64,000 nt of DNA from Leeuwenhoekiella palythoae (GTDB lineage Bacteria > Bacteroidota > Bacteroidia > Flavobacteriales > Flavobacteriaceae): contig NZ_FQXT01000001.1 in the NCBI RefSeq assembly GCF_900130045.1, forward strand, positions 310,001 to 374,000, given 5' to 3'. The notes below the pieces were generated by a model, which searched no databases, was not told the DNA's origin, and saw nothing but the letters and a program-made list of their open reading frames with translations. Every line of letters starts with the position of its first letter. Position 1 is the stretch's first letter. This document shows, in pieces, positions 17,750-60,883 of the stretch. Made by a program: the position numbers and the translations under genes.

Positions 17750-17767
17750 AATTCGATTATTTAAAAC

Positions 17768-19279: not shown

Positions 19280-19314
19280 AATTTCTAATATAATGTGCTT
19301 TATTTAAATATTGA

Positions 19315-20964: not shown

Positions 20965-20995
20965 AATTTGAAATTGTAATTGATTAGTTTAACGA

Positions 20996-21694
20996 TTAGC
21001 AGCCCTGCCCATAATAAGCATCCTTACCGTGCTTGCGCTCATAATGCTTTTTTATAAGCGAATCTTTAAGTCTTGGTGCATTAGGATTGATCTGAAGTGT
21101 CAATTGCGCCATACGGGCAACTTCTTCTAGAACCTTGCTGTTATAAACTGCTTTTGCAGCAGTTTCACCCCAAGCAAAAGGACCGTGGTTACCCAAAAGT
21201 ACCATATTAACCTCTTTATAATCCAAACCTTTGTCTTTAAAACAGTCTAGAATCTGAATCCCGGTGTTGTGTTCATAATTCCCGGAAATAAGGTCGTCGT
21301 GCATCGGCGGCGCACACGGGATATCTGCCGTCAGATGATCTGCGTGCGTGGTTCCAAAAATAGGAATGTCCATCTGTGCCTGAGCCCAAGCTACCGAATA
21401 GGTTGCGTGCGTGTGTGCAATACCGCCCACATCTTCCCAATGCTTGTATAAATAGGCGTGTGTTTTGGTATCTGAAGAAGGTCGTTTGACACCTTCTACA
21501 ATGTTGTTATCATAATCAACGATAACAATATCTTCCGGTTTTAAGGTTTCGTAGGGTACTCCACTAGGTTTAATGGCAAAGACACCATTTTTACGATCTA
21601 CCGCGCTTACGTTACCAAAAGTGTAAATAACCAGACCTAAAGCGTCTAGCTCCATATTAGCTTCGTAGCATTCTTCCTTTAAAGATTTATACAT
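20996..21694 (-). CDS. araD: L-ribulose-5-phosphate 4-epimerase
   Basis: The 232-residue class II aldolase-like enzyme converts L-ribulose-5-phosphate to D-xylulose-5-phosphate by retro-aldol chemistry with zinc. Motifs: GNVSAVDR (substrate phosphate), KPSGVPYE, the metal His pair in GGIAHTHATYSVAWAQ, GTTHADHL, and VLLGNHGPFAWG. Its first 8 bases overlap the end of araB, so the two are translationally coupled. Confidence 0.98.
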   Translation of the reverse strand: MYKSLKEECYEANMELDALGLVIYTFGNVSAVDRKNGVFAIKPSGVPYETLKPEDIVIVDYDNNIVEGVKRPSSDTKTHAYLYKHWEDVGGIAHTHATYSVAWAQAQMDIPIFGTTHADHLTADIPCAPPMHDDLISGNYEHNTGIQILDCFKDKGLDYKEVNMVLLGNHGPFAWGETAAKAVYNSKVLEEVARMAQLTLQINPNAPRLKDSLIKKHYERKHGKDAYYGQGC

Positions 21695-23406: not shown

Positions 23407-23414
23407 CAAATCTA
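23407..23414 (-). promoter_or_regulatory. Possible internal promoter (-7 box) before araB
   Basis: On the minus strand the box reads TAGATTTG, a full match to the Bacteroidota -7 consensus TAnnTTTG, 22 bases before the araB ATG. No clear -33 TTTG is seen. A TACATTT (23430-23436, minus strand), equal to part of the AraR operator candidate half-site, lies just upstream. Function is inferred. Confidence 0.4.
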
Positions 23415-23476
23415 CTATAATCTATTTAAAAATGTATATTTCACACTTAATATTTTTAGATTTTTTTTAAGACAAT

Positions 23477-25471: not shown

Positions 25472-25494
25472 TATATAAGTGTGTTTATGCGTTT

Positions 25495-27861
25495 TTATTC
25501 TTTAGTTGCGGGTATGCTCAATAAGCGTACGCCGTAAATTCCGGCTGTGGTTGAACCTTTTTCAGCTTCAAAGCGCACGGTTAGAATTTCATTAGTTGCG
25601 GCAAGTTCTTGCGGAATCGTATAATCAACTTCAAAAAAGTCATTCCCACGAGTTCCTTTGAAATGTGGTTCGGCAATTGTTGTCTCGTTTACCATTATCT
25701 TAAACTTGCGACCAGCGTCTTTACCAAAATAGGTCACGCGCAAAGTTTTAGCCTTAGCTTCTTTATTTCTAAGATCGTAGCTAAACCAACCTGTAGCATC
25801 GCGCCAGTGCTTGTTTTGATTTAAGCCACTGTTTGAATTTTCTGATAAAATTCCGTGATCAGATTCCGGTTGTTGTTCTCCCGGAGCCACAAAATCTAAT
25901 GTAATCTCTCGTAAGTAAGCTTCGGCTTTCTGCTTCTCTTCAAGCTTGCGTTGCTCTTCAGCTAAACCTTCAGGAGTTTGTTTTTTAAAGTATATCGAAT
26001 AGCGCTTCTCGTGAATTTTATAAAACGGCTGAAGCACCAAATCTGAATACGTTTCAGGGTAAAATAAATCTGGCGCTTTAAAGTGTAACGGATCGCCTTC
26101 AACCGGTTTGATCTCATTTAAAAGACTTTCACCGTCTTTAGTAAGAAACATCGGTGCTTCGGTTAAAGGTAAAAATGGACCGTCTGCAATGTGACCACCA
26201 CGACTATCGTCTGCAAAAAGTCCATCTTGATTTGCATCACCTGTCACTGCGGCCAAAACAATTGGACCGTATTTCACAGAAACATAGCCTGAATCATCAG
26301 GCAATTCTTCTAAACTTAAATGCATTGGCAATTCCATCTTAATGCGATCGCCATTTTTCCATTTGCGTTCTAAGGAAACATAAGAACCCGGAGTCGCATC
26401 TATTTTCTCTAGTTTATCATTCACATAAACCTTCAGTTCACCGGCATTTACCCATTGTGGATAGCGCAACATCAAAGTTGCCTTAGTTTTCTTTTTGCTA
26501 TTCCAAATGAGTTCAGTAGTTGCTTCTTCAGGAAAGTTTGTTTTTTGAGTAAGTGTTGCTTTTTTCTCTTCCCAGTTCACTTCCGAAGGAATAAACAAAT
26601 TCACATAAAGTTTATCCTCTTTTTTGGCATAAATGAGTTCGTTGTACTTGGTGTGATTTTCCATCCCCGATCCCACACAACACCAAAAACTGGTTTCCGG
26701 CTGCGAATACACGCGATAATGACCAGGACGGATGGGCGTAAAATACACAAAACCGCCATCAGGGTTTTGAGAAGACAGAATGTGATTGTACAAACCGCGC
26801 TCGTAAAAATCTATGTAATGCTCTTCTGAAGTATCTTCAAATAAGAGTTTGCTCAACTTGAGCATATTGTAGGTATTGCAACTTTCTGGTCCCTGCTCGC
26901 TGCTCACCACCGATGAAAAATCATCAACGGGATTAAAATGCTCGCGCACGCTATTCCCACCAATGCTTATGGAACGCCGTGTTGTGACATTATCGAAGAA
27001 ATTAGATGCGGCATCGTGGTAATCTTTAGCCTCTTCCAACTGACTGATCCGCTCAAAACCAATAAACTTAGGAATTTGCGTATTAGCATGCATTCCGGTT
27101 AATATGTCTTCATTTGCCGCTAGTGGTTTCAACAAAGCGTGCTGCGAAAAATCTTCAGCGAGTTTTAGGTATTTTTTATCGCTTGTAATTGCGTAAACCT
27201 CAGCAAAAACTTCGTTGAGTCCGCCGTGTTCTGAACGCAGCATATCTTGAATTTGCGCCTCACTTAGATCGGCTGTAATGTCCAGAAACCAATCGGTTAA
27301 CTCAATGAGCATACGCTTTGCCTGCGGAAGTTCTGCGTGAATCCACGCGTCTTTTAAACCATTAAAGGTTTTATGGATGTTATACAGCGGCACCCATTTA
27401 TCATTTAGACTGAAGCTTCCCGCGTTGATCTTTCCTGCTTTAATTTCCGCCCAAAGCGCATCGCTTCCGGGTACGCCACCAATGTAACCGTTCCCATTTG
27501 CTTTTTGAACGCGATCTAATTCGGCTAACGCATATTCAAGCATCTCTTTGGCTTTTGGATCACTGGTAGAAGCATAATACATCGACAATGCCGAAATATA
27601 ATGCCCAGCAGTATGGCCGTCGAGTCCTGTATTTTCCCAATTGGTGTAGGAATCCGCTTTAGGCTCAAGACCAGCTTCGCGCAAAAACGGAGCGAGTAAG
27701 CGGTCTGCATCAAGCGCTTGTATATAGTTAAAATCGGTTAATGCTGCTTCTTTAAAAACTCCGGATTCTACCGAAACCGCATTCAATGGAAAAAGCGAAA
27801 CCTTCTCCTGCGCTTTGGCAAAAGCACTTAGTAGAAACAGACTAACAACAACGTATTTCAT
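25495..27861 (-). CDS. GH127/GH146 beta-L-arabinofuranosidase-like protein, exported
   Basis: About 788 residues. I prefer the ATG at 27861 (MKYVVVSLFLLSAFAKAQ), giving a clean signal peptide and leaving 1 base to the upstream GH43 stop; an ATG at 27876 would overlap that gene. The zinc-cysteine catalytic centre known from GH127 is recognisable: GPESCNTY (Glu326, Cys328) and SFWCCVGSG (Cys394-Cys395, nucleophile region). A beta-sandwich and an approximately 120-residue C-terminal domain (LRVTYFGKDAG, YGVRLL) follow. Family members cleave beta-L-arabinofuranosyl linkages. GH127 and GH146 cannot be separated by eye. Confidence 0.92.
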   Translation of the reverse strand: MKYVVVSLFLLSAFAKAQEKVSLFPLNAVSVESGVFKEAALTDFNYIQALDADRLLAPFLREAGLEPKADSYTNWENTGLDGHTAGHYISALSMYYASTSDPKAKEMLEYALAELDRVQKANGNGYIGGVPGSDALWAEIKAGKINAGSFSLNDKWVPLYNIHKTFNGLKDAWIHAELPQAKRMLIELTDWFLDITADLSEAQIQDMLRSEHGGLNEVFAEVYAITSDKKYLKLAEDFSQHALLKPLAANEDILTGMHANTQIPKFIGFERISQLEEAKDYHDAASNFFDNVTTRRSISIGGNSVREHFNPVDDFSSVVSSEQGPESCNTYNMLKLSKLLFEDTSEEHYIDFYERGLYNHILSSQNPDGGFVYFTPIRPGHYRVYSQPETSFWCCVGSGMENHTKYNELIYAKKEDKLYVNLFIPSEVNWEEKKATLTQKTNFPEEATTELIWNSKKKTKATLMLRYPQWVNAGELKVYVNDKLEKIDATPGSYVSLERKWKNGDRIKMELPMHLSLEELPDDSGYVSVKYGPIVLAAVTGDANQDGLFADDSRGGHIADGPFLPLTEAPMFLTKDGESLLNEIKPVEGDPLHFKAPDLFYPETYSDLVLQPFYKIHEKRYSIYFKKQTPEGLAEEQRKLEEKQKAEAYLREITLDFVAPGEQQPESDHGILSENSNSGLNQNKHWRDATGWFSYDLRNKEAKAKTLRVTYFGKDAGRKFKIMVNETTIAEPHFKGTRGNDFFEVDYTIPQELAATNEILTVRFEAEKGSTTAGIYGVRLLSIPATKE

Positions 27862-27862
27862 T

Positions 27863-28843
27863 TTAATCAAGGACATTATCTTTTAAAGTTGGCCAGCCTT
27901 CAGCATCCCACTGAAGTTCAGCAATTTTTAATTTTGGTGCGCTATTATCATTAGCATCATACGCGTGAAAGATGATGTAATCCTTTCCGTCGAACGTGTA
28001 GGTACTATTATGACCCGCGCCATACCAATTTTCATTTCCTTCGATGATCAAGGTTCCACCACCGTTATTTAGGGCTACCCCGTCTTTATCTATATAAGGA
28101 CCGCTCGCGCTTTTAGATCGCCCTACCACTACTTTGTAGGTGCTGTTTTCGCCGCGACAGCATAAATCCCAAGACAAAAACCCATAGTACCAATCTCCCT
28201 TTTTGAAGATGAAAGGCGCTTCTAAAGCTGCATCTCCGGGATTGGCATCTGCCAGATCAAAAGAACGTTCCCGGCGCGCGATTGTATGCCACTCTTGCGG
28301 CTGCGCGATAGCTTTCAAATCCTCTGAAAGCTTTACCATTTTTAATCCTTCCCAAAAGGAACCAAATGCCAGATACGGCGTATCATTCTCGTCAAAAATC
28401 AAATTAGGATCAATGGCATTCCATAAATCGCGATTAGGAACCGACTGGATCACGATCCCCTGATCTTCCCATTTATAATTGGGATCGTCTGCATCAAGGG
28501 TTGTATTGGTCGTCAAACCGATCGCCGAAGTATTCTTTGCAAAAGCGGAAACCGAATAATACAAATAGTATTTGCCGTTATGGAACGTAATATCCGGAGC
28601 CCAAATATGATTATTGAAATCTGCCGCAACATCATCTGCCCATACCGGTTCTTCAGTAAATACCTGAGGTTCTTTTTCCCAATTTTTTAAATCGGGCGAA
28701 CTAAACACTGAAATTCCTCTACCGGTACAAAAGAGATAATAGGTATCGCCCTGCTTGATCGCAACCGGATCGTGAACGCGGATATCTTGTGCAAAAAGGC
28801 TATTAAAAACTAAAAGACTAAAAAAGGTAAAAAGCGTTTTCAT
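27863..28843 (-). CDS. GH43 endo-arabinanase-like enzyme, exported
   Basis: The 326-residue protein has a signal peptide (ending SLFAQ). It is a five-bladed-propeller GH43 enzyme with the three acidic residues in place: base Asp in RVHDPVA, pKa-modulating Asp in NAIDPNLIFDE and acid Glu in ALEAPFIFKKG. SWDLCCRGENSTYKV is typical of arabinan endo-1,5-alpha-L-arabinanases. It likely cuts the arabinan backbone in the periplasm or at the surface. It is one of three GH43 genes in a row with 1-3-base spacing. Confidence 0.93.
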   Translation of the reverse strand: MKTLFTFFSLLVFNSLFAQDIRVHDPVAIKQGDTYYLFCTGRGISVFSSPDLKNWEKEPQVFTEEPVWADDVAADFNNHIWAPDITFHNGKYYLYYSVSAFAKNTSAIGLTTNTTLDADDPNYKWEDQGIVIQSVPNRDLWNAIDPNLIFDENDTPYLAFGSFWEGLKMVKLSEDLKAIAQPQEWHTIARRERSFDLADANPGDAALEAPFIFKKGDWYYGFLSWDLCCRGENSTYKVVVGRSKSASGPYIDKDGVALNNGGGTLIIEGNENWYGAGHNSTYTFDGKDYIIFHAYDANDNSAPKLKIAELQWDAEGWPTLKDNVLD

Positions 28844-28846
28844 AGT

Positions 28847-29860
28847 TTAGTTTTCTGGTTGAATTCCTTCTGAAGTCATCACAATGCGTTTGATCGTCCC
28901 GTCTTCGTTGTAGTATAAACGATCTACACAAACCGAACGGTGAAAACTGCTCCCGTGTGTTGGAATGCTTCCGTTATGATAAACGAAATACCACTTGTCT
29001 TTAAATTCAATAATCGATTGATGATTGGTATTACTGTTACCCGCAACTTCATTTAAAATCCCTTTATATTCCCACGGACCGGTAATTGATTTTGACATCG
29101 CATAGGCGGTTTTCTCCGGAAAGTCATAAGCATAAGACAGATAATACCAGTCGCCACGCTTATGAATGTATGGTGCTTCAGTAAATTTAGGAAGATCAAC
29201 GGTGTGAATAGGACCATCCATCTCGATCATATTATCTTTTAACTTTACGTATTTACACACCTGATTTCCCCAATATAAATAAGGCGTACCGTCATCATCA
29301 ATAAAAACTGTTGGATCAATATCATCCCAGCTAATGCCGGTTTGCGTAGTCATATCGTTAGTGATCAACGCTTTGCCTATAGCATCTTTCCAAGGACCTT
29401 CAGGGCTCTCTGCCACGGCTACACCAATGGCTTTACCGTGCTTTGACTCGTCGTGTTGAACGGTCACAAACCAATAAAATTCCCCATCCTTTTCCACTAC
29501 CTCAGCAGCCCAAGCCGAATGAATTGCCCAATCAAAATCGGTAGGTTTTAGCGGTACGGGATGTTCTTTCCAATTGATCATATCGTCTGAAGAATACAGC
29601 AACCACTCATCCATAATATAACGCTCTTCATTATCTGGCGCCATGTCGTGGCCTGCATAAATATAAACCCGACCGTCGTGTACCAAAGCTGCAGGATCTG
29701 CAGTGTATTTGTCTTTTATAATTGGATTATTATAAGACGTTTCAAGCTCTTCAAAAAGGGCTTGACCACGTTCAACACTTACCTCTTCAATCTGTGCTGT
29801 GGTTTTACAACTTGCTAAAAGCGCTGTTACTGCTAATACTGTATAAATCTGCTTTTTCAT
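28847..29860 (-). CDS. GH43 family lipoprotein (arabinofuranosidase/xylosidase-like)
   Basis: The 337-residue protein has a lipoprotein signal (LLASCKTTAQ). GH43 catalytic acids appear as YTADPAALV, DIDPTVFID and KFTEAPYIHKRGDWYYLSYA. The single-domain layout suits an exo-acting alpha-L-arabinofuranosidase that trims oligosaccharides, but the product is not certain. It lies 1 base from the next GH43 gene upstream and 3 bases from the one downstream, so it is tightly co-expressed. Confidence 0.92.
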   Translation of the reverse strand: MKKQIYTVLAVTALLASCKTTAQIEEVSVERGQALFEELETSYNNPIIKDKYTADPAALVHDGRVYIYAGHDMAPDNEERYIMDEWLLYSSDDMINWKEHPVPLKPTDFDWAIHSAWAAEVVEKDGEFYWFVTVQHDESKHGKAIGVAVAESPEGPWKDAIGKALITNDMTTQTGISWDDIDPTVFIDDDGTPYLYWGNQVCKYVKLKDNMIEMDGPIHTVDLPKFTEAPYIHKRGDWYYLSYAYDFPEKTAYAMSKSITGPWEYKGILNEVAGNSNTNHQSIIEFKDKWYFVYHNGSIPTHGSSFHRSVCVDRLYYNEDGTIKRIVMTSEGIQPEN

Positions 29861-29861
29861 T

Positions 29862-31397
29862 TTAATTTATTTTTTTGCCCCAAATGGCAGTTCCTTCATT
29901 ATTTAATCCTGAAAGTAAAATGGTAGATTCTACTTCATTTTCCCAATCACGACCACGCTCTACATAGAGTTTATCTACAAACGTTCCATCACCAAAATTC
30001 AACGTAAGCCACGGCGCGTCATAACTCCATACATCATTGGCGTTAGTGTTAATACTTCCATCAGCATTTAAAGTCAGATCAATTGAATTTTGAAAATCTG
30101 GATAGCGTTGTTCATCGGCATATCCCGGTGTGACGGTGTATCCAAAAATGATTTGCTCATAATTTCCAACCAAATCAGTATCGGTGATCGTAGTCTGCGC
30201 CACATCTGCAAATCGCTCAGGCGAAATAATAGGCCAACCGTCTTCCGTCCAGTGAATTTTACGCACGTGCAATACCATAAAGAAGCTGTTTTCACCAGGC
30301 CTTCCCTGATGTGCCATATAATACTGACCGCTATCGTCTTTAAATACTCCCGGATGCGAAACTCCTTGCCAACCCGAATGCTCATCAAAGCGATACGGAG
30401 CCAAAATCATGGGACCGTTATCTTCTTCCGTATTGATATCTAAACCATTATAGTCATAAAATGGTCCATCTGGAGTATCGCTTCGGCCTACGCGCACGTT
30501 GTATTTGGTTTGCAACCAATCGTAGGCAATGAACATATAATACTTGTTTTGATCTTCATTATAGATCACTTCGGGTCCTTCAATATTTCCGTTCACAATT
30601 CCATTTGTGAAACCACGTTGTGCAACTCTACTTCCTGTATCTCCCGGGCTTGCAGCAAGACCGGTTTGTGGATTTAGCTTGAGTTTATAAATTCCATCAT
30701 ACGCAGAACCATAGTAGAACCAATGTTCGCCTGCCGGAGTAACCACCACCGAGGGGTCGATCGCATTGGTTTGCACAGGACCTCCCGGTTCTGATGAAAC
30801 CACCAAATCCTTTTCGACCCAAGGTCCCTCGGGACTGTCAGAAGTGGCGAGCCCCATAGTGCTTAACCTTCCGGTAGAAGAAGATAGTGAATAGTACAAA
30901 CGATACTCGTCGCCAACCTTCATCACATATGGTGCCCAAAGCGCTTGAAAAGGTGTTCCGCCTTTGCTTCTGATATACGCGGCGCCTTTGGCAGGCAACC
31001 CGTTAAACGCCCAACCAATCCATTCCCAATTGATCAAATCCTCTGATTTACGAATCTGAATACCAGGTCGTACATCTGAGCCAAAAGATACATCTGTATT
31101 ATAACAATAATAGGTATTACCCACTTTGATCACCGAAGGATCGTGCACGTTATACGGTCCCCAATTGGCAACATTCTCAACACCGGCAACATCGTAATAG
31201 GTATCGGTAATGTTGTCAACCGTATATACTTTTGCTGCTACAGGTTCTTCCGGTTCTTCTTCTGGAGTTGTTGGCGTTTCAGGCTCACCACCTGTTTCTT
31301 CCACCGGTGAATCTGATGAACACGAAATTGCCAATGCACACCAAAAGACTAAAAGACCTTTACGTAGCAAACTTGTATTTTCGTCATTCCTTTTCAT
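29862..31397 (-). CDS. GH43 endo-arabinanase with C-terminal domain, surface lipoprotein
   Basis: The 511-residue lipoprotein (ALAISCSSDSP) has a proline/glutamate-rich linker (about residues 25-55) that could hold it away from the membrane. The GH43 core has NVHDPSVIK, NAIDPSVVV and NIEGPEVIYNE as the acidic triad. Residues about 405-511 form a beta-barrel-like extension (NYEQIIFGYTVTPG, SIDLTLNADGS) found in larger endo-alpha-1,5-arabinanases. A linker after the lipid anchor is common for outward-facing enzymes that start polymer breakdown. Confidence 0.92.
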   Translation of the reverse strand: MKRNDENTSLLRKGLLVFWCALAISCSSDSPVEETGGEPETPTTPEEEPEEPVAAKVYTVDNITDTYYDVAGVENVANWGPYNVHDPSVIKVGNTYYCYNTDVSFGSDVRPGIQIRKSEDLINWEWIGWAFNGLPAKGAAYIRSKGGTPFQALWAPYVMKVGDEYRLYYSLSSSTGRLSTMGLATSDSPEGPWVEKDLVVSSEPGGPVQTNAIDPSVVVTPAGEHWFYYGSAYDGIYKLKLNPQTGLAASPGDTGSRVAQRGFTNGIVNGNIEGPEVIYNEDQNKYYMFIAYDWLQTKYNVRVGRSDTPDGPFYDYNGLDINTEEDNGPMILAPYRFDEHSGWQGVSHPGVFKDDSGQYYMAHQGRPGENSFFMVLHVRKIHWTEDGWPIISPERFADVAQTTITDTDLVGNYEQIIFGYTVTPGYADEQRYPDFQNSIDLTLNADGSINTNANDVWSYDAPWLTLNFGDGTFVDKLYVERGRDWENEVESTILLSGLNNEGTAIWGKKIN

Positions 31398-31407
31398 AGC
31401 AATAGAT

Positions 31408-32958
31408 TTATTTTCCTTCTAAGACTACTACCGAAAATGCCGGCAATGTCACTTCTAGCACCCCTTTCTTGAATTTAAAATCTTTAAACACTTCAGGCAT
31501 GATATGTTTAGGGTCTTCAAAAGAATTATGGTCCTGAAGTTTTTCTGAAGCTAAAATTTCAGCAGAAAAATCTTTGATGTCTAATTCACTTAGATCAATA
31601 CTCACCGTGTTTTCTTTATGAGCATCGATATTTACTAAAGAAATATGTGTTTTGCCTTCAGCATCTTTTGAAGCTGAAGCTGAAATCGCAGGAAGTTTAT
31701 CACCGTTTAGTTCATAATCTGGCGTATCTAAATCCATAGGAATCAATTGCGCATCTTGGTGCACCATATACATTTTTAAAATGTGGTAGGTAGGCGTCAA
31801 GATCATTTGCTCTCCTTTTGTAAGTGCAACTGCTTGTAAAACATTAACCGTTTGCGCCAAGTTTGCCATTTTTACACGATCACTGTGGTTGTGAAAAATA
31901 TTTAAAGTAGTTCCCGCAATCATCGCATCACGCATCGTGTTTTGCTGATATAAAAAGCCAGGATTGGTACCTTCTTGTACTTCATACCAGCCACCCCACT
32001 CGTCAACAACAAGATCAACTTCTTTATTCTTATCATATTTATCCATAATCGCCACGTGCTTGGTGATGAGCTCATCCATAAATAGAGATGATTTCATTGT
32101 GGTAAAATATTGCTCTTCAGAAAAAGTTACATCAGGACCTTTTGCTCCCCAATCGATCACAGAATAATGGTGCAGCGCAACCCCATCGATTAAGTTTTTA
32201 GGAATATTTTTCATCAACACTTCGGTCCAGTTATAGTCTGCGCTATTAGCTCCCGAAGCAATTCGGTATAAACCGGCTTCGTTGTTCCAGCTGCCCATAA
32301 ACGTTGCATACTGGCGGTACAGGTTGGCATAGAACTCCGGCTCCATGTTTCCACCGCAGCCCCACATTTCGTTTCCAACGCCCCAATAGGTAACTCCCCA
32401 AGATTTCTCGCGACCGTTTTCTTTACGCAAATCGGCCATCGGGCTCGTACCGTCGTGGTTCACATATTGTACCCAATCTGCCAATTCCTTTACTGTACCG
32501 CTACCTACATTTCCGGCGAGATAAGGTTCTGTTTCTAATGCCTCACATAAGTTTAGAAAGTTGTGTGTACCAAAGCTGTTATCTTCAGTCACCCCACCCC
32601 ACCAAGTGTTTACAATAGTTGGGCGATCCTCTTGTGGACCAATACCATCTTTCCAATGATAGGTGTCTGCAAAACAACCTCCCGGCCAACGCAGGTTAGG
32701 AATCTTGATCGCTTTTAAAGCTTCAATCAAATCATTACGCACTCCATCTGTATTAGGGATGGGGCTATCTTCTCCCACATAAAAACCATCATAAATAGAA
32801 CGTCCTAAGTGTTCTGCAAAATGGCCATAAATATGTTTGCTGATCGTAGGCGCATCTTCCGAAGGTTTTACGGTAATGGTTGCATCTTGAGCATTAAGCA
32901 CCGTAACGCTGCAAAATGCAATTACAAATGCACCTACAAGCTGTAATTTGTTCATCAT
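31408..32958 (-). CDS. Alpha-L-arabinofuranosidase, GH51, exported (short form)
   Basis: The 516-residue protein has a signal peptide (ending VLNAQD; the start may be either of two adjacent ATG codons). It keeps the acid/base Glu197 (GVGNEMWGCGG) and the nucleophile Glu320 (VVDEWGGWYE), plus LRWPGGCFADTYHWKDGIGP. It lacks the inserted CBM-like domain of the other GH51 in the locus and resembles the compact AbfA type that acts on short arabino-oligosaccharides. It is 10 bases before the GH43 trio. Confidence 0.96.
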   Translation of the reverse strand: MMNKLQLVGAFVIAFCSVTVLNAQDATITVKPSEDAPTISKHIYGHFAEHLGRSIYDGFYVGEDSPIPNTDGVRNDLIEALKAIKIPNLRWPGGCFADTYHWKDGIGPQEDRPTIVNTWWGGVTEDNSFGTHNFLNLCEALETEPYLAGNVGSGTVKELADWVQYVNHDGTSPMADLRKENGREKSWGVTYWGVGNEMWGCGGNMEPEFYANLYRQYATFMGSWNNEAGLYRIASGANSADYNWTEVLMKNIPKNLIDGVALHHYSVIDWGAKGPDVTFSEEQYFTTMKSSLFMDELITKHVAIMDKYDKNKEVDLVVDEWGGWYEVQEGTNPGFLYQQNTMRDAMIAGTTLNIFHNHSDRVKMANLAQTVNVLQAVALTKGEQMILTPTYHILKMYMVHQDAQLIPMDLDTPDYELNGDKLPAISASASKDAEGKTHISLVNIDAHKENTVSIDLSELDIKDFSAEILASEKLQDHNSFEDPKHIMPEVFKDFKFKKGVLEVTLPAFSVVVLEGK

Positions 32959-32965
32959 AGTGTAA

Positions 32966-35900
32966 TTATTTGGTGTTTGAATTGTGTGTGTTTTTATTTG
33001 AGTATTTAAAGGTCGCTATCGTATCACCGTTGCGACCAACTAGAATTAAATCGTCATTACTGACAGGTACTTTTACAATGCTTTTTGAATCTCCTTTTAG
33101 CGTGAAACCAGAGCGTTTACGGGGAAATTCTTTAAAGCCGCCATCTTGAGTATTCAGCAAAGTAGTACCAAAAGACGCATCGTAACGCCCGCCGTTGACT
33201 TCTGCGCTGTAATCATTACCCACAAGTAACAGATCTAGATATCCATCCTGATCAATATCTTCACAAAGCATTGCATTTACCGGCGCCAGCTGCGCTGCAT
33301 TAGGTAAAGGTTTTATAATAAATCCTGTTTCTGTATTTTCAATGAGTATGCTTCTCAACTCTTCGGCTTTAAGCGTTTGATACGGAGTTTTTAAAAGCTG
33401 AAGCAACTCACTTGTGTTTGCTTTTGCAAACCTGTGATAATAGAGGAATTTCTTTTTAAGTTGTGGTAATTGCTGCGTTAACTGATCTAGTGTAGCTATC
33501 GGAAAATAAGCACCTTCCTCATATTTTGAAAAGATAGGATCTACGTAACCGTTGTTGTCAAAATCAGCAAAGTCCACTTTTAAAGCTTGATGTTGTCCCG
33601 AATTTAAAACCGTATTCAAGCCTATATTTCCTGCAACAAAATCTATATCGCCATCATTATCAAAGTCAGCTGCGGCCATCCTATTCCATAAACCTGTTGT
33701 TTTGCTGAGGCCGAGTGCTTCGGTTTTATTTTTAAACGTTCCGCCTTCATTTTCTAATATGGTGATAGGCATAAATTCGCCTGCAAGGATGAGATCGACT
33801 TTTCCGTCTTTGTTGTAATCTTTAAATGTTGCAGCAGTGACCATTCCCGCATTTTGCAGAAACGGACAAACCTCAGCCGTTACATCTACAAAATTTCCAC
33901 CGTTATTCTTCAGAATATAACTCTGCGGCGCCGTTGGAAATTTCCCCGGAACCACGCGACCTCCCACAAAAAGATCTACAAAACCATCATTATCATAATC
34001 TGCTGCCGTCACGGCTAAAGTACTCGTAAGCATTTCGGGCAATGGCTGTGCTACAAAACCTGAAGTAGTATTGAAATACAAGCGATCCTGATAGGCTTCA
34101 TGACCTGCATAACGCTCCGTACCTCCGCTGGTCACGTAGAGGTCTAACTTGCCATCATTATTGGCATCAAACATTACAGCCTGACCATCTTCAAAAAGTT
34201 CTGTTTCCGGGAGTTCTTGTTTTTTAAAGCTTTGATCTTTTTGCTGATATAAAATAGTAGAATTTTCACCGTAGCTTCCGCCGATGAATACATCTTCGAG
34301 ACCATCTCCATTTAAATCCCCCACTGCGAGACTTGGACCTTGCTCTGAGTATTTATGCATCAGCAAAGGTTGCGTAGCATAATCGTTATTAAAACGATCA
34401 ATATGCTCATAATTAATTGTTTCAACACTTGTTAAAATACCCGGTTTTTTAACTGGTACATCCTTAAGCTCTTGTGCATCCTCATAACTCAATGTCAACT
34501 GCTGATTAGCTTCTATATTTCGCATAATAGCCAGTTTGCCGTCTGGCCATTGCACAATCATGCTATCTATCGTTTTGCGATTCTTCAACCCAAAATGCAA
34601 TGTGGTACTCACCGTACTTTGAAACCCACGCACCGGATTGTTAACTCTAATTTTTTCAGTATTGTCTGAATAGACACGTACAGATGCGCCAATTCCTTTT
34701 AAATTATTTTTTAAACCTTTTAGATTTACTTTTAAATAGTTTGAATCTGGTCCTAAACTGTCAGTGAGGGTATTTTTATAAATAAAAGCCGGAGCATTAA
34801 TATTACTTGCGATAAGGTCAAGATCTCCGTCGTTATCAAAATCAGCATACACCGCGCCACTTGAAATAGACGCTTCGTCAAAACCCCAAGCTTCAGTACT
34901 TTTAGTGAAGGACTGCCCATCTACATTTTTAAAAGCATAATTAGCGACCTTAATTGCTGGCCGTGTAGCTAAACAGTCTTTAACTGCTTTTTGCAATTGG
35001 CCACCACTACCAAAAGACGAACTTCTACTTTCTCTAAACTTCACAAAATCTATATCGGTAATGTCTTTGCCAAAACCGTTTGTTATATACAGATCATTAA
35101 AGCCATCGTTGTCAAAATCTGCAAGAAGCGGAGCCCAACTCCAATCTGTTTTATCTATACCGGCAAACTGACCTATTTCGCTATAGGTTCCGTCACCGTT
35201 GTTGTGCTGAAGCATATTACGCATATACTGATGCCCGTAGCCATAGCGTAAGGCAATCTGAAATATGTCGTATGAATTAGCTCCAGACATTAATTTTCTT
35301 CGCTTTAAATCTTCGGGCAACATATCAACGGTAATCACATCTGTAAAACCGTCGTTATCAATATCTGCTACATCATTCCCCATTGAAAAGTGGCTCATAT
35401 GCCCAAAATAGTTCAAGCCCTCTTCGTTAAATCTTCCATTTTGTTGATTTACATACAGTAAATCTCTTGATAAGTAATCATTTGAAATATAAAGGTCTGG
35501 CCAGTTGTCGTTATTGGCATCTAATACCGAAACGCCTAATCCAAAACCTTCAAAGGTGATTCCGGCTTCTGCCGAAACATTAGTAAAAACCGGATGTCCC
35601 AGTTGCTCATTGTAATCGTTGCGATATAACCGATCTGTATTCCTGGCGCTTCCGTTAGTTTGCATGGGTCTAACACTGATTGCAGAATTCTCAAATCCGC
35701 CGCCGGTTAATAGATACATATCCAGATCTCCGTCTAGATCGTAATCAAAAAACACCGCTTGAATAGATTCTCCCTGATCTGCCAAACCGTATTCGGTTGC
35801 AGCTTCAGTAAAGGTTAAATCGCCGTTATTGATGTAAAGCAGATTGGGGAACTCACTTTTGTTCCCCATTCCACCCACACTTAAATAAATATCATCATAA

Positions 35901-36274
35901 CCATCTTGATTCACATCGATCACACTCACTCCGGTTGTCCACTTTCCGGAAGTATCAATACCAGAAGTTGTAGTGATATCTTCAAACTGCATAGCTCCTT
36001 TATTGAGATAGAGTTTACTAGAAGTAAGATTTCCACTGAAAAAAACATCAGGTAAGTGATCGTTGTTAAAATCCCCAACGCCTACTCCACCTCCATTATA
36101 GAGGTACTCATAATTGAGTATGTTGATCGAATCATTTGTGGTTATTGTATTTTCAAAATCAATACCCGTATAAGAAGCACTGAGACGCTCAAAGAGCGTC
36201 TCAGACTTTTTATTATCTGCGCAAGAACTTACCACAACGGCAAATACTAAAACAAATAGGTTTTTGATTTTCAA
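32966..36274 (-). CDS. FG-GAP/VCBS repeat lipoprotein with ASPIC/UnbV domain
   Basis: The 1102-residue lipoprotein (VVSSCADNK) starts at TTG 36274; no ATG lies nearby. Many Asp-rich calcium-binding blades (DFNNDHLPDVFF, DVNQDGYDDIYLS, DFDNDGDLDLIAS, DLNGDGLEDVFIG and more) point to two beta-propellers. An ASPIC/UnbV segment (GASVRVYSDN, FGLKNRKTIDSMIVQWPDG) lies at about 515-590. It takes the position after susD that SusE/SusF or other surface glycan-binding proteins hold elsewhere. I infer a role in glycan capture or display; no catalytic motif is seen. A strong hairpin lies inside its 5' end. Confidence 0.88.
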   Translation of the reverse strand: MKIKNLFVLVFAVVVSSCADNKKSETLFERLSASYTGIDFENTITTNDSINILNYEYLYNGGGVGVGDFNNDHLPDVFFSGNLTSSKLYLNKGAMQFEDITTTSGIDTSGKWTTGVSVIDVNQDGYDDIYLSVGGMGNKSEFPNLLYINNGDLTFTEAATEYGLADQGESIQAVFFDYDLDGDLDMYLLTGGGFENSAISVRPMQTNGSARNTDRLYRNDYNEQLGHPVFTNVSAEAGITFEGFGLGVSVLDANNDNWPDLYISNDYLSRDLLYVNQQNGRFNEEGLNYFGHMSHFSMGNDVADIDNDGFTDVITVDMLPEDLKRRKLMSGANSYDIFQIALRYGYGHQYMRNMLQHNNGDGTYSEIGQFAGIDKTDWSWAPLLADFDNDGFNDLYITNGFGKDITDIDFVKFRESRSSSFGSGGQLQKAVKDCLATRPAIKVANYAFKNVDGQSFTKSTEAWGFDEASISSGAVYADFDNDGDLDLIASNINAPAFIYKNTLTDSLGPDSNYLKVNLKGLKNNLKGIGASVRVYSDNTEKIRVNNPVRGFQSTVSTTLHFGLKNRKTIDSMIVQWPDGKLAIMRNIEANQQLTLSYEDAQELKDVPVKKPGILTSVETINYEHIDRFNNDYATQPLLMHKYSEQGPSLAVGDLNGDGLEDVFIGGSYGENSTILYQQKDQSFKKQELPETELFEDGQAVMFDANNDGKLDLYVTSGGTERYAGHEAYQDRLYFNTTSGFVAQPLPEMLTSTLAVTAADYDNDGFVDLFVGGRVVPGKFPTAPQSYILKNNGGNFVDVTAEVCPFLQNAGMVTAATFKDYNKDGKVDLILAGEFMPITILENEGGTFKNKTEALGLSKTTGLWNRMAAADFDNDGDIDFVAGNIGLNTVLNSGQHQALKVDFADFDNNGYVDPIFSKYEEGAYFPIATLDQLTQQLPQLKKKFLYYHRFAKANTSELLQLLKTPYQTLKAEELRSILIENTETGFIIKPLPNAAQLAPVNAMLCEDIDQDGYLDLLLVGNDYSAEVNGGRYDASFGTTLLNTQDGGFKEFPRKRSGFTLKGDSKSIVKVPVSNDDLILVGRNGDTIATFKYSNKNTHNSNTK
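36180..36204 (-). repeat. Strong GC-rich hairpin inside the 5' coding region of the FG-GAP gene
   Basis: CTGAGACGCTC and GAGCGTCTCAG form a perfect 11-bp stem with a 3-base loop. It encodes residues about 24-32, just after the lipobox Cys, in the third gene of the SusC-SusD transcript. No T-run follows, so it is not a standard terminator. It may stabilise upstream mRNA, slow ribosomes or attenuate downstream expression. Confidence 0.6.
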
Positions 36275-36303
36275 GGTTTACTCTTTAAAAATTTAAACTA
36301 CTC

Positions 36304-37851
36304 TTAGTTAGCAGAGTTAGGAACTAAATTAGGATTACGGTCTAACTCACCCTGTGGTAACGGCTGGTATTCTCTACCGTTGGCAAAGGTGTCAAACTCA
36401 TCATCATTAGCTTGTAACTGTGATAACCTTGAAGAATCTTCTAACCATCCCCAGCGCTTAATATCGTAGTAGCGTAACCCTTCAATAGCTAATTCGGTTA
36501 CACGCTCGTGCGCTAATTGGTTCATAAACTGAGTCAAGTTATACCCCGCAAATTCTGCTTCTCTATCCGGAAGATTTGCACGATCACGCACACGCTGTAC
36601 CTGCGCCGCTGCTGTAGGAATATCACCTGTATTCGCAAGACATTCAGCATACATTAACAATACATCTGCAAAGCGAATCACGTGGTAATTAATACCAGCG
36701 GTAAACGGATCACCTCCTGAATTTGCCAAGGTATATTTTGCGATATAATTCAAGTTTCGGTCTAAGAAATAATCACGACCGTAAGCTTGTGTAAGACCTT
36801 CTTCTTCGTTGTAGCTTAAGATAGTTGCCGCATAGCGCGGATCTAAATTTCCGTCTACGGTTCTTTCTGATGATAATTCATCAACTAAAAACTGCGTAGG
36901 GAAAAAGTCATAGAAATCAGCTCCTGAATAAGTAGGTGCCAAAGCGATAAACTGTCTCCAGTTCACACTAGGATCACCACCCCAGTTAAAAACCGAATTT
37001 AAACTCTGTGTGAATTCCGCCCAAAAAATGCGACCCGGATTTGCCGCTTCTACGCTAGGATCTTGAGAAAAAAGATCTTGGTAATTCGCAGCTAGATCAT
37101 AGCGCTGTGATTCAACTACTGTTCTAAAATAAGGTAACGCAGTATCATAATCGCCTTGATATAGCTTTAATTTACCCATTAAAGATTGTGCTGCACCTAA
37201 AGTCGCTCTACCTACGTGACCGCTATCTGCGCCACTAACTGAAGTATAATCAGCCGGTAAACTTGCAATAGCCTCAGTAAGGTCTGCCTCTACTTGTGCA
37301 TAAATAGTAGCTTGAGTCACCTCTTGATTTGAAGGAAAGAAATCATCTTCACTTTTAGGAACACTCAATACTAAAGGAACATTATCATAAATGTTAGTTA
37401 GATTAAAATATGCCAAGGCTCTTAAAAAATAAGCTTGACCTAATAATCTACCTCTCAGATCTTCATCCATCTCTTCAATTAACGGAATATTCTCTAAAGC
37501 CTGATTGGCACGGTTTACCGTGATATAATATCCCTCATAACACCAGCCTACAGCATCGTCTGTACCGGGAACTGTGAAATTACTGGTCTGTTGTAAGAAA
37601 GCCCACGGACTTCTAGATTTAGTTTCATCGCTTCGACCGTCGCCAATAACCGGCGTCATACGCTGGTACAAGCCGTCTATGATCAACGTATTGTATATCG
37701 CATCTACCGCAGCTATCGCCTGATCTTCATTGGTATAATACGCATCAGCCGCCAAGCGGTTTGGGTTTATGATTTCTAATTCATCACCACAGCTGTAGAA
37801 CAAGCTTGTGGTAAGCGCAATTAGAAAAACTTTTATCGTGTGTTTTTTCAT
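36304..37851 (-). CDS. susD: SusD/RagB family surface glycan-binding lipoprotein
   Basis: The 515-residue lipoprotein (LFYSCGDELEIINPN) forms the lid of the SusCD outer-membrane importer. It has the TPR-like helical N-terminal half (EDQAIAAVDAIYNTL, LRGRLLGQAYFLRALAYFNL) and the C-terminal region of the family (YHVIRFADVLLMYAECLANTG, AIEGLRYYDIKRWG, PLPQGELDRNPNL). It is 4 bases after susC. The likely ligand is arabinan oligosaccharide, from the neighbouring enzymes. Confidence 0.97.
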   Translation of the reverse strand: MKKHTIKVFLIALTTSLFYSCGDELEIINPNRLAADAYYTNEDQAIAAVDAIYNTLIIDGLYQRMTPVIGDGRSDETKSRSPWAFLQQTSNFTVPGTDDAVGWCYEGYYITVNRANQALENIPLIEEMDEDLRGRLLGQAYFLRALAYFNLTNIYDNVPLVLSVPKSEDDFFPSNQEVTQATIYAQVEADLTEAIASLPADYTSVSGADSGHVGRATLGAAQSLMGKLKLYQGDYDTALPYFRTVVESQRYDLAANYQDLFSQDPSVEAANPGRIFWAEFTQSLNSVFNWGGDPSVNWRQFIALAPTYSGADFYDFFPTQFLVDELSSERTVDGNLDPRYAATILSYNEEEGLTQAYGRDYFLDRNLNYIAKYTLANSGGDPFTAGINYHVIRFADVLLMYAECLANTGDIPTAAAQVQRVRDRANLPDREAEFAGYNLTQFMNQLAHERVTELAIEGLRYYDIKRWGWLEDSSRLSQLQANDDEFDTFANGREYQPLPQGELDRNPNLVPNSAN

Positions 37852-37855
37852 TTTC

Positions 37856-40800
37856 TTAAAATTTTAATTGAGCACCAAGCATTGTTGTTAATGGTCTAGG
37901 ATAGGTTCCGTAGTCAAAACCAGGGCTTAACACACCTGCTTGAAAATCTGGGTTATATCCTTTATAGCTTGAAAGAACAGCTACATTTTGAAGCGTCACA
38001 TAAAAACGTGCACTTGACATATGAATGTTTTCAACAAATGTATCTGGCAGTGTATATCCTAAAGAAATCGTATTAATTCTAAAGTAATCTCCTTTTTGCA
38101 ACCATCCCGGTCTGTTAGAATCTCTACCGTTGTTGTTAGGATCTAAGAATACCACTCTAGGAATTGTAGTATTTGTATTCTCTGGAGTCCAGCGATTTAA
38201 GATATCCTCGTGCCAGTTTGTATATCCCGTTGTTGGCATTAAGCCTTTATACAGGTTACTGTTGATGTAATTTCCGCCAGCTCCCTGACCAAAGATCGTG
38301 AAGTCAAAATCTTTGTAACGTGCTGAGATGTTGATACCGTAATTAAACGTTGGAAGTGCGCTACCTAAGAAGGTTCTATCTTCGTCTGTAATGCTTCCGT
38401 CGCCGTCAAGATCTCTAAATCGAATATCTCCAGCAGCTGTTCCGGGAGTTTGAAATGGTGCATTGTCAACCTCTTCCTGAGACTGAAAAATTCCATCATA
38501 AACCCATCCGTAATGCTCTCCTAACGATCTTCCTACCACAGTACGAGCTCCGGTAGATGAGATCAAATCAAGACCGCCAATATCCAGAACTTCGTTGTTT
38601 ACGGTATAAAAATTTGGCGCAACTTCAAGATAGAAATCTCCAAACTGCTTTCTGATCACTGCAGAAAGTTCAATTCCACTGTTTTTGATCGAACCTGCAT
38701 TAGTTAATAATTGTGAACCGATAGAACCATTAGAGATCGGGATTGGCACATAAGTAAGTACATCGTTTGAAGTGTTTGAATAATATTCTGCAGTAAAATC
38801 AACACCGCCATTAAACAATGTAGCATCAATACCTACACTACGCGTCACACGAGTTTCCCACTTGATGTCTTGGTCAACAAGAGCTGTAACTGCGGCTCCT
38901 ATTGCGCGACCGTAAGCAAAAGAATATGGAATACCACGGTTGATGGTGTTTTGATACGCGTAATTCAAAATTTCTTGGTTACCTACTTCACCAATACCTC
39001 CTCTAAGTTTTAAAGCAGTAATGAATTCAGGTAATTCAAATTCGTTGTGAATTTTCCAACCTAAACCTACAGAAGGGAAATAATCGTAGCGCAATTCTTC
39101 TCTAAATTTTGAAGAACCGTCACGTCTGATATTTGCAGTAAGCAAGTATTTATCATCAAAGGAATAATTCACACGACCTAGTAACGAACTGATCGCTGAG
39201 TTCTGAATGTCGTCATTTACACTGAAGTTTTCAGCATTTACCAGGTTCTTTACATAAGGCGCCGTTAAACCAACACCGGTTGCAGAAACATTGCGCGCAT
39301 TAAACTTCTGATAGGTTTGACCTGCTAAAACAGTAAGGTTATGTTTACCAAATTCTTTAGTCCAGTTGATCGTATTTTCGATCAAGAATGAGCTGCTCTT
39401 TCTTGAACCATACTGCAGTTGTGCGGTAGGGTTAGGAAAAAAGTATCCTAAATCGTACTGAGGAACAAACAATTGATCTTCAATATCTGTATTATCATAC
39501 TGAAGGTTTGTCTTTAATTTTAAACCTTCAATAGGCTCAAACTGTGCATAAAAATTCGCTAAAACACGATTTACTTTAGTTTGATTTTCAATAAGCGTAT
39601 TGATACCAGGAACGTTAAGTGTGATCGACTGATGAATTGTAGCATCTGCCCCGCCAAAACCTCCTAAGCGATTAGGATCGTAAACAGGAATGGTTGGCGC
39701 CGCTTGCAATAAGTCGTTTACCAAAGAAGGTCGACCACCAGGAAGTCCTATAGTAGTTGTATTGAATAATGGGTTTTCGTCAGAGTGTACGATATATACA
39801 TTCTCACCAAAATTGAATTTACCCACTTCAGTATCAGAATTCACACGGAATGAATATCTTTTATAGTCAGGTCCAGAACCCACAAGTGTTCCTTCATTGT
39901 CTAAATAGTCTAAAGACACAAAGTAGCTCGTCTTCTCAGATCCACCAGAAATATTAAAGTTGTGGTTCATGATATAACCATCCTTATATCCTTCATCCTG
40001 CCAGTCTGTATCTATATCATCTATATACAAATCTGAACTAGGATCATTACCAGGGGTCAAAGGCTGTCCTGCATTCGTTAAAAGTTCGCTGTTGATCATT
40101 TGGTATCCTTCACGATCCAACAAAGGAAGTTTTTGAGTAATGGTCTGAATACCATAATACGAGTTTACCTCAACGGCAAACTTCTTCCCTTTAGCACCGC
40201 TTTTAGTAGTGATGATCACAACACCGTTTGCAGCACGGTTACCATAAATAGCACCTGCGGTAGCATCTTTTAAAACCTGAATAGACTTAATATCATTAGG
40301 GTTGATATCACGTATTCCTCCAGAGATAGGAAAACCATCTACAACATAAAGTGGCTCTGCGCTCGCTCCTTGGCCAAAGGTTGACACCCCACGTATTCTA
40401 ACACTAGGCGAAGCACCCGGCTGACCGTCACTGGTAATAGTAACCCCGGCAACACGCCCCTGCATCATTTGTGTGACATCATTAGAAGCCTGCTTGGTCA
40501 TTTCTTCAGTATCCACAACACTAACGGCTCCCGTTAAATCAGATTTACGCTGCGTACCATAACCTACTACAACGACTTCGTCTAAAGAGGATAAAGCCTC
40601 TTCTAACGTTACAGTAAGCGAGGTCTGCTCACCCACAGTTATACGTTGCTCTTGAAATCCTAAATAGGTAAATACTAATACATCGTTTGCGCTAGCTTCA
40701 ATTGAAAAGTTACCGTCAAAGTCTGTTACCGCACCTGTAGTGGTTCCTTCAACCAGAACATTCACTCCGGGAATAGGCATATTACCGTTTGAAGACAGGA

Positions 40801-40936
40801 CGGTACCTGTAATGGTCTTGCTTTCTTGTGCTTGAGCACTCATAATGGGCGCCAAGACAATTGCGAGAAGAAATATCCCTTTCTTAAAGAGGTATTCAAA
40901 AACGCAAAGACAATCATAAAGTTTGTTTTGCTTCAT
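37856..40936 (-). CDS. susC: SusC/RagA family TonB-dependent outer-membrane transporter
   Basis: The 1026-residue protein has a signal sequence (MSAQAQ near residue 35), a carboxypeptidase-regulatory-like N-terminal domain (ITGTVLSSNGNMPIPGVNV), a TonB-box-like DEVVVVGYGTQRK, a plug (SIQVLKDATAGAIYGNRAANGVV split motif) and a 22-strand barrel ending MLGAQLKF. It imports oligosaccharides with TonB energy and pairs with the adjacent SusD. As first gene of the locus it has a promoter whose -7 box is covered by a palindrome. The N-terminal signal region is longer than usual; an internal start is possible. Confidence 0.97.
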   Translation of the reverse strand: MKQNKLYDCLCVFEYLFKKGIFLLAIVLAPIMSAQAQESKTITGTVLSSNGNMPIPGVNVLVEGTTTGAVTDFDGNFSIEASANDVLVFTYLGFQEQRITVGEQTSLTVTLEEALSSLDEVVVVGYGTQRKSDLTGAVSVVDTEEMTKQASNDVTQMMQGRVAGVTITSDGQPGASPSVRIRGVSTFGQGASAEPLYVVDGFPISGGIRDINPNDIKSIQVLKDATAGAIYGNRAANGVVIITTKSGAKGKKFAVEVNSYYGIQTITQKLPLLDREGYQMINSELLTNAGQPLTPGNDPSSDLYIDDIDTDWQDEGYKDGYIMNHNFNISGGSEKTSYFVSLDYLDNEGTLVGSGPDYKRYSFRVNSDTEVGKFNFGENVYIVHSDENPLFNTTTIGLPGGRPSLVNDLLQAAPTIPVYDPNRLGGFGGADATIHQSITLNVPGINTLIENQTKVNRVLANFYAQFEPIEGLKLKTNLQYDNTDIEDQLFVPQYDLGYFFPNPTAQLQYGSRKSSSFLIENTINWTKEFGKHNLTVLAGQTYQKFNARNVSATGVGLTAPYVKNLVNAENFSVNDDIQNSAISSLLGRVNYSFDDKYLLTANIRRDGSSKFREELRYDYFPSVGLGWKIHNEFELPEFITALKLRGGIGEVGNQEILNYAYQNTINRGIPYSFAYGRAIGAAVTALVDQDIKWETRVTRSVGIDATLFNGGVDFTAEYYSNTSNDVLTYVPIPISNGSIGSQLLTNAGSIKNSGIELSAVIRKQFGDFYLEVAPNFYTVNNEVLDIGGLDLISSTGARTVVGRSLGEHYGWVYDGIFQSQEEVDNAPFQTPGTAAGDIRFRDLDGDGSITDEDRTFLGSALPTFNYGINISARYKDFDFTIFGQGAGGNYINSNLYKGLMPTTGYTNWHEDILNRWTPENTNTTIPRVVFLDPNNNGRDSNRPGWLQKGDYFRINTISLGYTLPDTFVENIHMSSARFYVTLQNVAVLSSYKGYNPDFQAGVLSPGFDYGTYPRPLTTMLGAQLKF

Positions 40937-40974
40937 GTGAACAAAAGTTTAAAAGTTAATTATAAGTGTGTATT

Positions 40975-40992
40975 TTACATTTCCAAATGTAA
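40975..40992. promoter_or_regulatory. Candidate AraR operator (perfect palindrome)
   Basis: TTACATTT and AAATGTAA are separated by CC: an 18-bp perfect palindrome in the spacer between the divergent araR and susC genes. It covers the -7 box of the susC promoter, so a bound dimer would block RNA polymerase. An identical TTACATTT half-site lies on the araR -7 box (41128-41135). AraR as the binder is inference from position and from Bacteroides AraR biology. Confidence 0.65.
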
Positions 40993-41016
40993 GTAAAGAT
41001 ATCTCAATGAAACAAA
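40984..41016 (-). promoter_or_regulatory. susC promoter (Bacteroidota type)
   Basis: On the minus strand: TTTG at 41016-41013, a 21-base spacer, then TACATTTG at 40991-40984, matching TTTG-N19-21-TAnnTTTG. The start of transcription would fall near 40977, leaving a leader of about 40 bases before the susC ATG. Confidence 0.7.
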
Positions 41017-41103
41017 TTTATTTTAAGAAAAATTTAAACTTTAGCAGTTGAATATTTCAAAACAACATTGCGATAACGATTTTTTATTATTGTATTCTTA
41101 ACA

Positions 41104-41136
41104 TTTATTTTATTTTTACTCTTATTATTACATTTG
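41104..41136 (+). promoter_or_regulatory. araR promoter (Bacteroidota type)
   Basis: TACATTTG at 41129-41136 is a full -7 match, with TTTA (one mismatch to TTTG) 21 bases upstream. It includes a single TTACATTT half-site, so araR may be under weaker self-control. The leader would be about 40-45 bases. Confidence 0.6.
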
Positions 41137-41184: not shown

Positions 41185-41883
41185 ATGACAGATCAACTCA
41201 ATAATTACAACTCTGAAGATAAAGTGCTGCTTGCAGTAGATTGTATAATCTTTGGTTTTGATCAGGAAGACCTAAAAATTCTTCTAATTAAAAGGGACTT
41301 TGAACCAGAAAAAGGCAAGTGGTCGCTTATAGGTGGGTTTTTAAAAAACACAGAGACTCTAGACGACGCCGCAAACCGTATCCTGCACCACCTTACCGGA
41401 TTTGATAAAATCTATATGGAGCAGCTTTATAATTTTAGTAAGGTAGATCGTGATCCTGCTGAGCGTACCCTGTCTGTCGCCTATTACGCACTCATTAATA
41501 TTGAAGACCACGACGAGCATTTGATAGAGCAATATTCAGCGCAATGGTTTAGTATAGAAGAGGCGCCTTCACTCATTTTTGACCACGATGAGATGGTGCG
41601 CAAAGCTATTCTTCGCTTACGCAGACGCGCTATTTCTAAACCTATAGGTTTTGAATTACTTCCCGAAAAATTCACTATGCGCCAATTACAAAAGCTTTAT
41701 GAGTCTATCCTAAATGAAAAGCTCGATAAACGCAATTTTATCAATAAGGTAAATGGATTGGATGTATTGGTTAAACTAGAAGAGAAAGACATGTCTTCGT
41801 CACGCAAAGGTTCTTATCTCTATCAGTTTGATAAGGAAAAATACGATCGAAACGTTGAAGACGGAATCACGTTTAAGATCTAA
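41185..41883 (+). CDS. araR: Nudix-fold transcriptional regulator of arabinose genes (AraR, NrtR family)
   Basis: The 232-residue protein has an N-terminal Nudix-like domain and a C-terminal winged-helix region (about 150-232). The Nudix box is degenerate: GGFLKNTETLDDAANRILHHLTG (in two parts, residues 50-72) lacks the REUxEE catalytic glutamates, so it should sense a ligand and not hydrolyse nucleotides. Nudix-type AraR of Bacteroides thetaiotaomicron represses arabinose genes and is released by L-arabinose; divergence from the arabinan locus supports the same role here. Confidence 0.9.
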   Translation: MTDQLNNYNSEDKVLLAVDCIIFGFDQEDLKILLIKRDFEPEKGKWSLIGGFLKNTETLDDAANRILHHLTGFDKIYMEQLYNFSKVDRDPAERTLSVAYYALINIEDHDEHLIEQYSAQWFSIEEAPSLIFDHDEMVRKAILRLRRRAISKPIGFELLPEKFTMRQLQKLYESILNEKLDKRNFINKVNGLDVLVKLEEKDMSSSRKGSYLYQFDKEKYDRNVEDGITFKI

Positions 41884-60853: not shown

Positions 60854-60883
60854 AAAAAGCCGTTACACCAAAGTGTAACGGCT
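60854..60883 (-). terminator. Rho-independent terminator of the rpmB-rpmG-DUF4295 operon
   Basis: AGCCGTTACAC and GTGTAACGGCT form a perfect 11-bp stem with a 4-base loop. On the minus strand it is followed by a T-run. It lies 22 bases past the DUF4295 stop and separates the ribosomal genes from ftsY. Confidence 0.92.

Follow-up and report, generated by a model that had tools for sequence, protein, structure and literature searches.

Among the systems described so far, the closest to the one considered here is that of Bacteroides thetaiotaomicron AraR (BtAraR; BT0354; PDB 5bs6, 5dd4, 5ddg, 5deq), which is reported to bind DNA and to be released by L-arabinose (PMC4666351). In the crystal complex with DNA and in the oligonucleotides used for EMSA, as described in that paper, the half-sites AGTGT and ACACY point towards each other across a 7-base spacer, and GTGT carries the contacts. 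Sites of this kind are described before ara genes and susC/D-type genes, with a tandem pair at Bacteroides araMPRDAB, and araR lies inside the ara operon (PMC4666351). The same paper reports K184, K204 and R205 as fully conserved in Bacteroides and Prevotella AraR; we treated this as a property of the 2015 set and not as a defining feature of the AraR branch. Two further points of reference are the Bacteroides XylR (BT0791) type of NrtR regulator (PMC4666351, PMC3878776) and the flavobacterial sigma-A promoter, in which the -7 box TAnnTTTG is placed at -12 to -5 (PMC9723704).

The window, i.e., the whole 64-kb stretch of Leeuwenhoekiella palythoae DNA analysed here, contains an araR gene divergent from a 24-kb cluster of arabinose genes (Table 1). 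We consider it very likely that an AraR dimer represses this cluster from two operators of the Bacteroides type, A[A/G]TGT-N7-ACA[C/T]T, where binding, repression, start sites and the arabinose response are predicted from sequence. AraR bound at 40964-40982, downstream of the susC -7 box and over the predicted start, would block initiation; bound at 23430-23448, over the -33 zone of an internal araB promoter, it would block the binding of RNA polymerase. With two operators, the uptake and hydrolysis genes and the catabolic genes would therefore be switchable from two points, and AraR would leave the DNA in response to L-arabinose, as BtAraR is reported to do. The locus shares with the BT0354 system the domains of the regulator, its arabinose-pocket residues, the order of the half-sites, their 7-base spacing and the placement of sites before ara genes and susC/D-type genes (PMC4666351). 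It differs from it in that one half-site reads ACATT instead of ACACY, each promoter has a single site rather than a tandem pair, and araR is divergent rather than internal to the ara operon (PMC4666351).

Table 1 Features of the arabinose locus (positions in the 64-kb window)
Feature	Position	Strand	Basis or remarks
araD, solute:sodium symporter, araA, aldose-1-epimerase	16565..21694	-	NCBIfam
araB, ribulokinase	21687..23384	-	NCBIfam NF003154 above cut-off
araB -7 box TAGATTTG	23407..23414	-	TAnnTTTG box after the operator in each of 10 close genomes
Putative AraR operator 2, AAGTGT-GAAATAT-ACATTT	23430..23448	-	Upstream of araB; A[A/G]TGT-N7-ACATT 63-65 bases before araB in 10/11 close genomes
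susD, FG-GAP/ASPIC protein, two arabinofuranosidase-type genes, three GH43, one GH127	23477..37851	-	
susC-like TonB-dependent receptor, first cluster gene	37856..40936	-	
Putative AraR operator 1, AAGTGT-GTATTTT-ACATTT	40964..40982	+	BtAraR operator layout; AAGTGT-N7-ACATTT in 11/11 close loci
Palindrome	40975..40992	.	Right half-site of operator 1 plus susC -7 box; spacer-2 form in 3/11 close and 2/80 wider loci
susC -7 box TACATTTG (TAnnTTTG type)	40984..40991	-	Sequence; flavobacterial -7 consensus (PMC9723704)
TTTG, possible -33 element of the susC promoter	41013..41016	-	N21 to the -7 box; same spacing in 32/64 comparable sites elsewhere
Degenerate AraR-like site ATTGT-N7-ACATT	41089..41105	+	9/10 letters; A[T/C]TGT-N7-ACATT in the five closest loci
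Candidate araR -7 box TATTTTTA	41111..41118	+	Aligned with TATTTTT[A/G] in the five closest loci
araR half-site TTACATTT of the first-pass annotation	41128..41135	+	Not conserved
araR	41185..41883	+	NUDIX, NrtR_WHD and AraR_C domains (PF00293, PF21906, PF19368); divergent from susC

The divergent gene had been named araR in the first-pass annotation, and the domains and the PDB match bear this out: the product is an NrtR-family regulator like Bacteroides AraR, with both a Nudix-like domain and an NrtR/AraR winged-helix domain. Its best PDB match is AraR 5bs6 (E 1.2e-70), and the alignment to Bacteroides AraR is gap-free, with 105 of 217 residues identical to BtAraR. The arabinose-pocket residues R34, F36, F49, R86, F129 and H131 are kept. 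For a wider comparison we used named AraR loci, namely the best 80 among 577 confirmed ones, a set that is rich in Flavobacterium and whose counts are not independent; gene names in these loci are the best blastp matches of our own ORF calls to the window proteins. The closest among them is Leeuwenhoekiella blandensis MED217, with an AraR 95% identical to that of the window. The residues that form hydrogen bonds with L-arabinose (R34, R86 and H131) and those that contact DNA and read the operator (D178, K179, R180 and N181) are present in the window AraR and in 80/80 wider loci. Unlike in the 2015 set, residues 184, 204 and 205 of the window AraR are N, R and K (K184, K204 and R205 in BT0354, where R183 also corresponds to I here), which counts against regulation by AraR from two operators; across the wider loci, K is found at 184 in 5/80 and at 204 in 17/80, and K replaces R at 205 in 80/80. 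The comparison of residues 186/187 with the choice of C or T in the half-site gave no clear pattern.

The gene clusters with arabinose functions, namely susC/D, arabinofuranosidases, araB, araD and araA. On the minus strand, from 40936 to 16565, the order is susC, susD, FG-GAP/ASPIC, arabinofuranosidase-type, three GH43, GH127, a second arabinofuranosidase-type gene, araB, araD, symporter, araA and epimerase, and according to the ORF list the intergenic gaps are at most 35 bases, except for 92 bases before araB. The product encoded between susD and the first arabinofuranosidase-type gene (32966-36274) is an FG-GAP/UnbV_ASPIC repeat protein of 1102 residues.

The inward layout A[A/G]TGT-N7-ACA[C/T]T occurs exactly twice in the window, both times in front of ara-cluster genes, and the reversed control pattern occurs once. 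The strict core of operator 1 is AGTGT-GTATTTT-ACATT (40965-40981), with each half-site facing inward and 7 bases between them; that of operator 2 is AGTGT-GAAATAT-ACATT on the minus strand (23447-23431). Compared with AGTGT-N7-ACACY, both have T instead of C at one position of the right half-site, and the resulting ACATT in place of ACACT speaks against AraR operators at these positions, as one K179-G contact would be lost. If the susC -7 box is placed at -12 to -5, operator 1 would span about -3 to +16 of the predicted susC start, a position just after the box that fits repression. Operator 2, which was absent from the first-pass annotation, lies in the 92-base stretch before araB, which is the one long gap of the 24-kb cluster, and would cover about -46 to -28 of the predicted internal araB promoter, which likewise fits repression. 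The -7 boxes at susC and araB are of the same TAnnTTTG kind as in the flavobacterial sigma-A promoter (PMC9723704); no clean TTTG -33 element was seen at the araB promoter, which is a point against the arrangement with two operators.

The operator at susC had previously been placed on a perfect palindrome, TTACATTT-CC-AAATGTAA at 40975-40992 (full string TTACATTTCCAAATGTAA), whose perfect 8-base arms and CC spacer are as described, as are the minus-strand -7 box TACATTTG inside it (40991-40984) and the TTTG 21 bases upstream of that box (minus strand, 41016-41013). The right half of operator 1 is shared with the left arm of the palindrome, and the right arm is the -7 box. By its letters, the palindrome is a junction of two elements, the putative right half-site of operator 1 and the abutting susC -7 box TACATTTG; the sigma-A box that overlaps its letters is a promoter element, not an operator. 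The idea of an AraR-type operator on the susC promoter is thus retained on sequence grounds, while the palindrome as its unit is replaced by the conserved 40964-40982. In other words, the first-pass annotation identified promoter and regulator correctly but erred in the bases, and the site at 40964-40982, about 10 bases from the palindrome, is the likely switch that shuts off the arabinose genes.

An important question is how widely this layout is conserved. A close set was formed by the 11 of 13 genus genomes that have an AraR of at least 78% identity. AAGTGT-N7-ACATTT is found 150-221 bases upstream of the araR match in 11/11 of these loci; the other two genus genomes (G007 and G009) have only AraR matches of 49-51% identity, with no strict site upstream. 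In the eleventh close genome (G012), the only strict site within 600 bases of araB lies 347 bases upstream of it, in the araB-araR interval. Among the 20 araR-like loci examined, a strict site is located at most 500 bases upstream in 15, including two genomes from another family of the order (G040 and G053), and none was found in the other 5. The wider loci contain 171 sites of the N7 layout, distributed over 71/80 loci, versus 7 for the reversed pattern; the other spacers, 0-6 and 8-15, yield 0-16 sites each, and the everted N7 order none. By our own ORF calls, 167 of the 171 N7 sites are intergenic or upstream of an ORF. A site lies within 450 bases of araR in 69/80 wider loci and upstream of araB in 21 of the 28 that hold araB, and the best site at most 450 bases from araR scores 10/10 letters in 68/80 loci (reversed motif, 0/80). 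The strict site was not found in 9/80 wider loci, three of which (L117, L121 and L153) have a 9-of-10 site, and in another such locus (L131), the upstream sequence comprises only 124 bases; together with the 5/20 araR-like loci that have no strict upstream site, these cases count against AraR operators of this kind. Overall, the comparison indicates that the operator layout of Bacteroides AraR extends to Flavobacteriia and to some loci of Saprospiria and Cytophagia, for which no description was found in the open-access literature searched.

In the L. palythoae genome, the 17-base AraR pattern is not over-represented (18 occurrences versus 18 of the reversed control), which again weighs against the two-operator reading; for the 19-base pattern, four close genomes together give 51 versus 21 for the control. 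Outside the ara locus, a GH43 gene has a 19-base site 15-29 bases upstream in 5/5 close genomes (L211, L203, L198, L205 and L209), and a GH97/two-component-propeller gene pair has the 19-base form in 3/5. These genes are candidate further targets of AraR, a distribution that would also allow other regulators. Genes for KduI/DUF4861, FBPase and GH88 proteins elsewhere in the genome also have sites nearby, which we did not attribute to AraR.

As for the control of araR itself, the half-site TTACATTT proposed in its promoter is present at its position, but none of the other 10 close loci has it on the araR side, so that it occurs in 1/11 only. In the five closest loci, the sequence before araR includes a conserved block with both the degenerate site and the -7-like TATTTTT[A/G]. 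In L015, a 9-of-10 site lies at a different distance from araR, and the remaining five close loci score 7 or 8. Since the reversed motif also reaches a 9-of-10 score within 450 bases of araR in 8/80 wider loci, the site at 41089-41105 is only suggestive; weak self-control of araR through it is possible, and it is a weak candidate.

The relation of operators to promoters also follows a pattern. TAnnTTTG boxes accumulate at three positions relative to the operator centre: starting 18 bases before it, with the operator right after the box, as at susC (22 cases); starting 3 bases after it, with the box inside a half-site (24 cases); and 24-26 bases after it, with the operator over the -33 zone, as at araB (17 cases). 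The geometry TTTG-N21-TAnnTTT[G/A]-N2-operator is shared by 32/64 comparable sites, with smaller TTTG peaks at 15 (16 sites) and 34 (14 sites). In G-ending -7 boxes two bases before an operator, the free bases are CA in 12/20 versus 3/65 elsewhere (Fisher p 3e-7, relatedness not corrected); when A-ending boxes are included, CA is found in 18/59 and AA in 21/59. Palindromes like 40975-40992 recur because of this CA preference in -7 boxes beside operators, and the preference may reflect shared descent, promoter strength or a third half-site. The last of these would make the susC -7 box TACATTTG a third AraR half-site, so that promoter and operator share letters and AraR reads a sigma-factor element, which we regard as unlikely. 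One locus (L164) holds a complete second operator in the palindrome register. A second dimer bound through the right arm of the palindrome was considered and rejected: the partner half-site scores a mean of 2.61 of 5 at gap 7 and 2.74 at gap 5.

Another question is whether 40964-40982 and 23430-23448 could be bound mainly by a regulator other than AraR, either a Crp-like factor or an NrtR-type paralog. The genome encodes three AraR-like paralogs of 42-54% identity, and the ara, xyl and fuc operons of Bacteroides are reported to be preceded by a Crp-like motif (PMC3878776); however, the consensus given there, wwwTATGTTnTAnAACATAwww, fits neither site, and the operator motif tracks araR and araB. 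Two of the paralogs (C9 and C11, 42-43% identical to AraR) are comparable to the XylR type (PMC4666351, PMC3878776), a label that we take from their context. They differ from AraR in pocket residues (H34, D36 and W49) and in their intergenic sequence, where both share a different word. Divergent to C9 lie genes for an FGGY kinase and a xylose-isomerase-like protein, so that xylose-type neighbours are shown for this paralog, and the neighbours of C11 are known by ORF layout only. The third paralog (C7) has P at K179 and altered pocket residues. Taken as the main occupant of the two sites, another regulator is thus very improbable, and AraR remains our preferred candidate. The word shared by the XylR-like paralogs, GACTACAAGTATAC (L082:10035-10158 and L084:9578-9692), is a candidate operator of their own. 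C7 (L083:9669-10394, G000; 54% identical to AraR) represents a third kind of NrtR/AraR-like protein, which is found in most genus genomes compared; its gene lies between those of a TPR histidine kinase and a LuxR-type response regulator, and its DNA-contact residues are altered as well.

That the palindrome 40975-40992 itself is the AraR operator appears highly improbable, even though its symmetry on the -7 box is perfect and its loose form, ACA[C/T]T-N4-A[A/G]TGT, is over-represented, with 30 cases in 28/80 wider AraR loci. Its half-sites point outward (ACATT-N4-AATGT), the wrong way for the known dimer. The first-pass annotation had itself suggested a search upstream of orthologous loci, and there the palindrome is not conserved: the spacer-2 form is present in 3/11 close Leeuwenhoekiella loci (L005, L006 and L008) and 2/80 wider AraR loci, a spacer-1 form in 1/11 (L013) and neither in 7/11. 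Moreover, by our own count, 23 of the 30 loose palindromes adjoin a full N7 operator, and such cases therefore follow from the operator. The palindrome was also rejected as a statistical anomaly, as the 64-kb window has 36 perfect palindromes with 8-base arms and spacers of 0-10, some of them nested, three with spacer 2. In the L. palythoae genome, TTACATTTNNAAATGTAA with at most two mismatches occurs at 12 places versus 7 for the reversed pattern, and 40975-40992 is the only perfect match; the pattern count of 2 versus 0.13 expected represents one site read on two strands, with a pattern picked after it was sighted. A separate perfect palindrome of the 8+4+8 form, CGTTACAC-CAAA-GTGTAACG, was found by the palindrome scan at 60861-60880.

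Finally, in this AT-rich region the conserved block adjoins or overlaps the -7 box, as it would if it were core promoter sequence only, with no operator, but this is extremely improbable given that the AAGTGT half, located downstream of the promoter, is conserved in 11/11 close loci, that at araB the block is instead found upstream of the -7 box, and that spacing 7 is strongly preferred over 0-6 and 8-15.

For the arabinose locus, repression by AraR from two operators of the Bacteroides type would have direct consequences. The operator to be tested shifts by about ten bases from the palindrome, and an experiment built on the palindrome would have altered the promoter together with just one half of the operator. 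The locus also gains a putative second operator, at araB. The altered recognition residues of this AraR, combined with the unchanged spacing of the half-sites, offer a simple test of protein-DNA specificity.
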